Part shown: positions 3,019-61,540 of the stretch, piece after piece | Numbering within the stretch: position 1 is the stretch's first letter | Layout: the number at the start of each line of letters is the position of its first letter | From: Stygiolobus caldivivus | Lineage (GTDB): Archaea; Thermoproteota; Thermoprotei_A; Sulfolobales; Sulfolobaceae | NCBI RefSeq assembly: GCF_019704315.1 | Contig: NZ_AP024597.1 | Coordinates: forward strand, 1,860,001-1,924,000 | DNA: 64,000 bases | Direction: 5' to 3' | The notes under the pieces: generated by a model | Seen by the model: the letters and a program-made list of their open reading frames with translations, nothing else | Told to the model about the DNA's origin: nothing | Databases searched by the model: none | Program-made: the position numbers and the translations under genes

Positions 3019-3149
3019 CGGGCCCGCCGGGATTTGAACCCGGGACCTACGGGTACCTCCTCTACCTGGCTCTATAAGTTAAGAGCCCGCCGCTCCACCT
3101 GGCTGAGCTACGGGCCCAGCAAAAAACAAACATAAAATAAAGTATAAAA
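3012..3149 (-). repeat. Right arm of the tRNA-Lys inverted repeat
   Basis: Reverse-complement counterpart of 1404-1536, comprising the 32-base promoter flank (3118-3149), the tRNA exons and a 7-base 3' flank. Recombination between the two arms would invert the intervening epimerase block. Confidence 0.85.
3019..3117 (-). tRNA. tRNA-Lys(CTT) with a 25-nt intron
   Basis: Read on the minus strand, acceptor GGGCCCG pairs with CGGGCCC and the discriminator is G. The anticodon loop is CTCTTAA, giving anticodon CTT. A 25-nt intron (3055-3079 in plus coordinates) follows position 37; its removal restores CTCTTA-ACCCGT and a 74-nt tRNA. The intron is unrelated in sequence to that of the tRNA-Lys(TTT) partner although the exons are almost identical. 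Confidence 0.95.
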
Positions 3150-15818: not shown

Positions 15819-15908
15819 GGGCCCGTAGTCTAGCCTGGTTAGGACGCCGCCCTCACAAGTGAAAACTGAGTACGGCGGAGGTCCCGAGTTCAAATCTCGG
15901 CGGGCCCA
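15819..15908 (+). tRNA. tRNA-Val(CAC) with a 15-nt intron
   Basis: Acceptor GGGCCCG pairs with CGGGCCC, discriminator A15908. The anticodon stem CCGCC/GGCGG closes a loop with anticodon CAC; the 3' half is separated by an intron of about 15 nt (15858-15872) after position 37. Splicing gives a 75-nt tRNA with T-arm CCGAG-TTCAAAT-CTCGG. The exact intron edges could shift by a base. Confidence 0.93.
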
Positions 15909-39796: not shown

Positions 39797-39895
39797 AGCC
39801 GCCGCGGGGACTTGAACCCCGGACCACCGGCTGTACCGGGTCCTTACCAATTTGCCTTACGAGGCCGGCGCTCTACCAGTCTGAGCTACGGCGGC
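39797..39895 (-). tRNA. tRNA-Thr(CGT) with a 25-nt intron
   Basis: On the minus strand acceptor GCCGCCG pairs with CGGCGGC; discriminator T73 is usual for archaeal tRNA-Thr. Anticodon stem CCGGC/GCCGG, anticodon CGT. The 25-nt intron (39833-39857 in plus coordinates) lies after position 37; mature length 74. An AATTTTATAAGC element is 25-35 bases upstream. Confidence 0.95.
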
Positions 39896-47904: not shown

Positions 47905-49116
47905 TTATTCGACTAACTTAGCTTCTATACCGTCTAAAGCTAAGCTATACAAAAAATCTGATAGAGCATCGCCAGAAGGTATTTCAAACATAACGTAAAT
48001 CTTTGTATATCCAGGCTTCACATCACTACTAATTCTATCGTGAATAACATCAATTACATTTCCTCTTATTTGAGCTATTCTACTTAATACTTTATTTAAG
48101 TAGCCCGGTTTATCAGGTACTAGAACTTTTACTTTTACTATTCTTTTAGATTTATACAGCATTTTATCTATTATTCTAGCTAATAGTGATAAATCTATGT
48201 TTCCTCCACTTATTACCGCCACCATCTTCTTTCCTTTTCCGTCTATCTTTCCCGAAAGCAACGCAGCTACTGTAGACGCTCCAGCTCCTTCCGCTATTGT
48301 CTTGTTCCTTTCAAGGAGGAACATGATTGCATTCGCTATTTCTTCATCATCAACCAATACTATATCATCAACTAGCTCCTTAACTATTTCATAAGTTAAT
48401 TTAGAGGGAGATTTAACTAATATCCCGTCCGCTATTGAAAAAGAAGGTTCTATTTCTACTAATCTACCTAAATCCTTTGATACTTTTAATGAGGGAGAGG
48501 CCGAAGATTGAACTCCTATGATTTTCACGCTTGGTAGTTTAGATTTAATCGCAATTGAAACCCCTGAGATAAGCCCTCCTCCACCTATAGGGACGATCAC
48601 TATGTCCGGTTTTAAATCTAGTAGCTCTAATCCTAGCGTCCCTTGCCCTAATATCACATTTAAATCACCATAAGGATGAACCATTATGGCCCCAGTTTCT
48701 CTAATAATTTCCTCAGCTTTTTTCATTCCTTCATGAAGAAATTTCCCATACAATACGACATTAGCACCATACGATTTAGTTGCTAGATATTTAGAAATTG
48801 GAGCAGTTTCGGGCATCACAATAGTCGCCTTAATTCCAAGTGCTTTCGCAGCATAAGCTACGCCTTGCGCGTGATTCCCAGCGGATACTGCTATAACTCC
48901 CCTAGCTTTTTCTTCATTAGATAACCTTATTAGCTTGGAAAAAGCTCCCCTAACTTTAAACGAACCGGTCTTCTGTAGATTTTCCATCTTAAGATATACT
49001 TTAGCACTTAAAAGATTAGATAAAGTAGATGAATAGTCCAGCGGAGTCTCATGAATATAGTCTTTTATTAACTCCTTAGTCTTAATTATTTCATTATAGT
49101 AATTTAACCATGACAT
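47905..49116 (-). CDS. ilvA: Threonine dehydratase (PLP) with C-terminal ACT domain
   Basis: Deaminates threonine to 2-oxobutyrate for isoleucine synthesis or catabolism. PLP lysine in '[13 protein letters not shown]', substrate loop '[13 protein letters not shown]', PLP phosphate loop 'GGGGLISGV', and an ACT domain from about 325 ('[20 protein letters not shown]'). 403 residues. Its leader contains a C/D-box RNA on the same strand whose D box touches the ATG. Confidence 0.94.
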
Positions 49117-49166
49117 TCAGGGAAACCCTGCCATCATCATTGTTCAGAGATCGAAGGCCTCATCCT
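49117..49166 (-). ncRNA. C/D-box guide RNA overlapping the HIT stop and ilvA leader
   Basis: Reading the minus strand, in order: AGGATGA (C box, one mismatch to RTGATGA), 12-nt guide, CTGA (D'), ACA, ATGATGA (perfect C'), 13-nt guide, CTGA (perfect D). This is the full four-box geometry of archaeal C/D sRNAs with correct guide spacing. The C box and first guide lie in the last codons of the HIT gene, the D' TGA is its stop codon, and the D box ends on the base before the ilvA ATG. It would guide 2'-O-methylation; targets not determined here. Ends are box limits and the real RNA extends a few bases each side. Confidence 0.7.
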
Positions 49167-49653
49167 TACTATTAAATTCAACATATAACTTATTATACGT
49201 ATCTTCTAAGAGTTCAGGAAGTACTTTTATGTTACCTATAACCGGCATAAAATTAGCGTCTCCATTCCATCTAGGAACTATATGCACATGTACGTGTTGA
49301 TCAATACCAGCACCCGCTACTCTGCCTATGTTAGCCCCTATGTTAAACCCATCTGGTGAATATACTTTTCTTAACACTTTTAATGATCTCTTTATTATAA
49401 AAAACATCTCAGATGACTCTTCTTCTGATAATAGTTCTAAACTACTCACATGCCTATACGGAACTACCATTATATGCCCTGGGTTATATGGATATGCGTT
49501 AAGTATTACAAAATTATACTTAGCCCTAAATACAATTAAATGCCCTTTATCATTATTAGATTTAGGAAATTCGCAGAAAATACAAGTATCGTCCTTCTTT
49601 TTAGAAGCTTCTAAAATATATTTTGACCTCCAAGGAGCCCACAATACGTCCAT
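49144..49653 (-). CDS. HIT-family (Ap4A-hydrolase-like) protein
   Basis: A histidine-triad hydrolase of nucleotide phosphoramidates or diadenosine polyphosphates. The triad is '[10 protein letters not shown]' (H-x-H-x-H), with '[20 protein letters not shown]' upstream. An N-terminal CxxC zinc-type pair ('TCIFCEF') is also seen. 169 residues. Its last codons and stop form part of the embedded C/D-box RNA. Confidence 0.92.
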
Positions 49654-57142: not shown

Positions 57143-57230
<88 letters not shown>

Positions 57231-59049: not shown

Positions 59050-59362
59050 GGGAGCCTACCAGGGGGATACGGGGTAATATACCCTGAGGAAACTCCGGCC
59101 TCCCGATCCCTAAAGGAGTCGTATAAGACAAGGGTAGTGCCCTTGGCAACAGAACAGAAACGGACCAGCATAATGGAAAATGAAAATGAGCCAAACCTTA
59201 ATCTGGGAGACTGGGTTAAGGTGGCGAGATCCATTATGCTGGTTGAAACGGCTGACCTCCTTGGAGCAAGTAGAGGAGGAGATGAGTAGGGGATCTAATC
59301 CTCCTCTTGACGCTAAGTCAGATTCCCTCTATGTACAGAAGCCGGGTTATTGGTAGGCTCCC
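59050..59362 (+). ncRNA. rnpB: RNase P RNA
   Basis: Catalytic RNA of RNase P, which removes 5' leaders of tRNA. The terminal helix is GGGAGCCTACCA with TGGTAGGCTCCC at the ends. CR-I GAGGAAACTCCGGCC, an ACAGAA motif in the middle and the CR-V-like ACAGAAGCCGGGTTAT near the 3' end are all present. About 313 nt, normal for Sulfolobales. The 3' 50 nt overlap the 3' end of tsr3 on the opposite strand. Confidence 0.96.
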
Positions 59363-61452: not shown

Positions 61453-61540
61453 CGGGCCCGCCGGGATTTGAACCCGGGACCTCTGGCTTTCTCTATCAGA
61501 TCCGGAGGCCAGCGCTCTATCCTGGCTAAGCTACGGGCCC
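61453..61540 (-). tRNA. tRNA-Arg(CCG) with a 13-nt intron
   Basis: On the minus strand acceptor GGGCCCG pairs with CGGGCCC, discriminator G. Stem CTGGC/GCCAG, anticodon CCG, 13-nt intron (61489-61501 in plus coordinates) after position 37; mature 75 nt. Its 3' end is one base after the tiaS stop on the other strand. Confidence 0.93.

Follow-up and report, generated by a model that had tools for sequence, protein, structure and literature searches.

Can a 50-nt segment that runs through the end of one gene and up to the start of the next be an RNA gene in its own right, and is it maintained for these genes or for a target of its own? The question is raised by minus-strand positions 49166–49117 of the window (the whole 64-kb stretch of crenarchaeal DNA analysed here), which, read directly, give AGGATGA-GGCCTTCGATCT-CTGA-ACA-ATGATGA-TGGCAGGGTTTCC-CTGA. 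The C box AGGATGA (49160–49166) carries one mismatch to RTGATGA and is followed by the 12-nt D' guide GGCCTTCGATCT (49148–49159), a perfect D' box CTGA (49144–49147), the 3-nt D'-C' spacer ACA (49141–49143), a perfect C' box ATGATGA (49134–49140; sequence and alignment of relatives), the 13-nt D guide TGGCAGGGTTTCC (49121–49133) and a perfect D box CTGA (49117–49120). The box order C, D', C', D with guides of about 10–15 nt is that of an archaeal C/D box sRNA, apart from the single mismatch in C, and the original prediction, which had described four boxes in order on the minus strand, one mismatch in C and guides of 12 and 13 nt, is exact to the base. A terminal stem flanking C and D is not clear by eye in the window copy; in certain relatives, G134 and G207 among them, it is.

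When both strands of the window are scanned for the C-D'-C'-D shape, allowing one mismatch in C and C' and requiring exact D and D', only 49166–49117 matches, with a chance expectation of 0.017 matches per window in order-1 Markov simulated windows. No Rfam family exceeds its gathering threshold for the 50-nt element. The sole family listed, snoPyro_CD (RF00095), scores 23.9 bits (E = 0.0037), short of its gathering score of 45 and so below what membership takes; its box register is the same across the whole model, and its guides are unrelated to those of the element. The box motif by itself is only suggestive. The identification becomes secure because conservation in relatives and pairing with 16S rRNA are added to it, and the three lines agree, as had been proposed, on a genuine archaeal C/D box sRNA gene.

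The element is tightly interwoven with its neighbors. On the minus strand, RadA (50677–49706), a HIT-domain protein gene (49144–49653) and ilvA (47905–49116), encoding threonine ammonia-lyase (TIGR01127, 479 bits with a cut-off of 379; PF00291), follow in succession. The last codons of HIT are made up of the C box and the D' guide, and its stop codon TGA (49146–49144) forms the last three bases of the D' box, the source that had been predicted for it. Simultaneously, the ilvA ATG (49116–49114) lies directly past the D box, which likewise confirms the predicted abutment. No TATA-like hexamer occurs within 52 nt of the ilvA ATG in the window sequence, and an AT-rich stretch is situated upstream of HIT, so that a shared transcript fits. 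The original prediction held that the sRNA must be processed from, or compete with, the HIT-ilvA message; the missing TATA-like hexamer makes this a fair reading of the locus.

Within the Sulfolobaceae (f1, a name we infer from neighbors including Sulfolobales archaeon Acd1), boxes and guides persist while the codons of HIT and ilvA on either side drift, as was expected of a real guide RNA gene. Across 19 family-level loci, the RNA block has a mean pairwise identity of 0.78; the 50-nt segment of HIT that precedes it has 0.59, and the opening 50 nt of ilvA have 0.56. HIT farther upstream reaches 0.74–0.77, close to the RNA block, so the contrast holds against the immediate flanks. The D' box is identical in 19/19 aligned distinct sequences, and the C box appears in relatives as GTGAAGA, ATGAAGA or ATGAGGA with the register unchanged. 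The D'-C' spacer shows the lowest mean pairwise identity of all parts (0.36); it is short (k-loop) in the window and longer in L022 and G060. The examined Sulfolobaceae loci that have the RNA also preserve the way it overlaps the HIT stop and the ilvA start, either as in the window or slightly shifted, and in most relatives the D box overlaps the ATG (CTGATG, CAGATG, CGGATG). Acd1 (L053), with a match the same as that of L022, is the only RNA carrier among the checked loci of a contig scan that otherwise gave mostly distant HIT homologs. In several loci (L010, L011, L014, L016–L018 of g6, L027, L024 and L028) the D box is CAGA or CGGA in place of CTGA; in f1 loci these variants share their A with the ilvA ATG, and the k-turn retains its GA.

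Both guides match one part of 16S rRNA, UUAAACCCUGCCG and, 19 nt on, GGAUCGAGGGCUG, in line with the proposal that their complements be sought in rRNA; pairing was scored on the 16S rRNA of relatives. The D' guide forms 12 bp, three of them G-U, with GGAUCGAGGGCU, and the D guide, which in the window pairs only from nt 3, pairs through nt 3–13 from the D box with AAACCCUGCCG, including one G-U. In the relatives' 16S rRNA the N+5 nucleotide is base paired for both guides and, aligned to E. coli rrsH, falls at A1289 and U1308 (C in archaea), positions which we take to lie around helices 41–42 of the small-subunit head. This complementarity predicts that the cytidine at E. coli 1308 is 2'-O-methylated through the D' guide, and the adenosine at E. 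coli 1289 through the D guide. Only 1/2000 shuffled guide pairs reached the joint score of the window guides against the rRNA of G008. When relatives' guides were shuffled against their own rRNA, the counts were 0/500 for G011, 6/500 for G006 and 55/500, not significant, for G008, in which an additional G is present in the D guide.

The variation of the guides is for the most part compatible with wobble pairing. Among 23 sequences, D' guide changes are mostly compatible with pairing, including an A/G alternation opposite U; the exceptions are nt 2–3 from the D' box in g6 and nt 1, which is often unpaired. In G038 and G192 the 16S site is GAGGAC instead of GAGGGC, and the guide places a T opposite the A. 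In G124 the target CCCCGC faces the guide GCGGGG, whereas G049 and G108 retain a mismatch although their target is also CCCCGC, and some genomes have a mismatch in the middle of the helix. G003 and G012 (g3) retain an unaltered 16S target, although these genomes show no credible copy of the RNA. In L004, L006, L024 and L028, the D guide contains one extra G (GCAGGGG); the duplex would then bulge, or methylation would move to another base.

The RNA extends well beyond the Sulfolobaceae. A sequence-only model matches at E ≤ 0.01 in 121/214 genomes of the order, almost always as one copy, the matches near this limit being partly half-matches; outside the order, five genomes of three families match at E ≤ 0.001. 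The genomic setting changes from family to family. It is HIT-RNA-ilvA in f1 and HIT-RNA with ilvA absent in f4 and most of f10, and in the loci read from f2, f5, f11 and f13 the RNA stands alone, with neither HIT nor ilvA within about 1.5 kb. In L025 the RNA block comes after the HIT stop. In the genus g3 (L021, L023, L029), HIT and ilvA lie 5–12 nt apart and the RNA is absent; a relaxed-filter search for a hidden copy in the genera without the RNA at HIT (g3, g5, g7, g2) found nothing better than E = 0.03. The RNA occurs without these genes, and in g3 HIT-ilvA occurs without the RNA, so the conservation of the RNA is explained by neither gene. The RNA gene is very old and can be traced in most of the order's families. 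Where it overlaps the HIT stop and the ilvA start, this is a local arrangement of the Sulfolobaceae, not the cause of its conservation.

Taken as a whole, the locus is very probably, judging from sequence, a double-guide C/D sRNA, most likely derived from the HIT-ilvA message, that would guide methylation of 16S rRNA at 1308 and 1289, with an overlap local to the Sulfolobaceae. The sRNA would most likely be transcribed as part of this message; L7Ae, Nop5 and fibrillarin would bind the C/D k-turn and the C'/D' k-loop, and the message would be trimmed to the mature sRNA after protein binding. The D' guide would then produce Cm at 1308 and the D guide Am at 1289, and by holding both 16S sites, 19 nt apart, together, the RNA may also aid local folding.

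Since part of the block lies within coding sequence, its conservation might instead be due to the HIT C-terminus or the ilvA translation start, with the boxes a coincidence. Such an origin is highly improbable. HIT proteins of loci without the RNA (L021, L023, L029) end before the tail, the block occurs away from both genes in f2, f5, f11 and f13 and past the HIT stop in L025, and residues vary where pairing is kept: positions 3–5 from the 5' end of the D' guide are always C or T where the target has G (or A), even though A/V and F/L changes occur in HIT. Coincidence with a coding constraint was rejected on the copies away from HIT and ilvA and on this wobble-compatible variation. The dependence probably runs the other way: because HIT proteins without the RNA stop earlier, the last HIT residues are likely a by-product of the RNA constraint, a point that bears on how the end of this protein is annotated. 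A less drastic departure keeps the C/D sRNA, with the D guide serving mainly as a chaperone contact or decaying in some lineages, where only the D' site would be methylated. The D guide is indeed replaced or lost in G038, G192, G046 and G036, where the D' guide stays, and an extra G forces a bulge in g8 (G008, G016) and f4. However, nt 3–11 of the D guide pair uninterrupted in most Sulfolobaceae sequences, the window included, and we regard this variant as a minority possibility, at roughly one chance in four.

The remaining alternative gives the overlap a function. The original prediction had suggested that the overlap could tie threonine dehydratase translation to guide-RNA maturation; in an extended form, L7Ae binding or sRNA maturation would hide or remove the ilvA start, and ilvA output would report the demand for guide RNA or L7Ae. 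In nearly all examined Sulfolobaceae loci having the RNA, the D box adjoins the ilvA start or overlaps it, and no TATA-like site lies close upstream of ilvA. Furthermore, the L7Ae of S. acidocaldarius represses its own mRNA about 1.6-fold through a 5'-UTR k-turn (PMC5539422), and 5' overlaps of C/D genes reduced downstream reporter expression in the account of Tripp et al. 2017 given in a review (PMC7994747). The l7ae case shows that a k-turn beside a start codon can repress translation; here the k-turn belongs to a guide RNA, and its repression of ilvA is hypothetical. Against such control, the RNA is conserved and equally recognizable without an adjacent ilvA or HIT, and HIT-ilvA persists in g3 without it. 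A regulatory 5' leader would be kept with ilvA and lost without it, and the RNA is found without ilvA and ilvA without the RNA. In addition, a passive cost to ilvA would give the identical picture. With overlaps of ORF ends being common as well, a tie to threonine dehydratase as the purpose of the overlap is not supported, and its extended form appears unlikely. Because the start codon is shared with, or directly follows, the D box, a single transcript could yield the mature guide or IlvA, not both; that k-turn protein binding or excision from the HIT-ilvA transcript thereby controls ilvA translation in the Sulfolobaceae, coupling isoleucine synthesis to ribosome biogenesis, is equally doubtful, and if true it would be a new link. 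Some coupling to ilvA is possible, either as a cost or, by analogy, via L7Ae as on its own mRNA.

The double-guide sRNA preferred here shares its box order, guide lengths and N+5 geometry with known archaeal C/D box sRNAs, including the Sulfolobus sR series (PMC4644070, PMC7994747). Two guides directed to nearby rRNA sites and genes overlapping ORF ends are also described there, and no fundamental difference exists. As the review (PMC7994747) summarizes Tripp et al. 2017, about 25% of C/D sRNA genes in archaea run into the 3' end of an ORF and contain its stop codon, about 7% overlap an ORF 5' end, and the internal boxes suffice for maturation. In its account the stop of 3'-overlapping genes is commonest in the C box, whereas here it lies in D', with a downstream start abutting D as well. 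ORF overlaps are thus already documented in archaea, and the element is a further archaeal C/D sRNA of that sort. A literature search did not find the exact sequence, and neither an ortholog of the RNA nor the 16S sites 1289/1308 were found in the main text of the archaeal C/D sRNA papers examined; the RNA has perhaps already been catalogued in a Sulfolobus model.

More unusual than the overlap is the swapped order of the guides. In g55 of f10 and in f3 (g13, g60, g61), both guides, or recognizable forms of them, are reversed within one C/D unit, the GCAGGGTTT-type guide coming first and the CCCTCGATC guide second (L178, L191, L193–L199, L201 and L176). This order would fit, at the sequence level, a circularly permuted gene. 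Family f8 retains the second guide together with an unrelated first one. Dennis et al. report one circularly rearranged paralog in Methanopyrus, Mka sR88 (PMC4644070), so this type of event is already known. Two guides trade places in Mka sR88 as in some relatives of the present RNA; Mka sR88, however, is a diverged paralog in one genome, whereas here an apparent ortholog keeps both guides in several genera. A single pair of guides with its 16S site can be tracked across a stand-alone gene, an overlap of ORF ends, partial loss and an order swap, which makes the RNA a good case for how guide RNA genes move. Archaeal C/D guides are described as fast-evolving, whereas this RNA is traceable in most families of the order.

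Elsewhere in the window, an archaeal RNase P RNA gene is located on the plus strand at 59050–59362 (159 bits). Six Rfam tRNA genes of 88–99 nt are also found (1436–1529, 3019–3117, 15819–15908, 39797–39895, 57143–57230 and 61453–61540); they are long for the model, and some of them likely contain introns.
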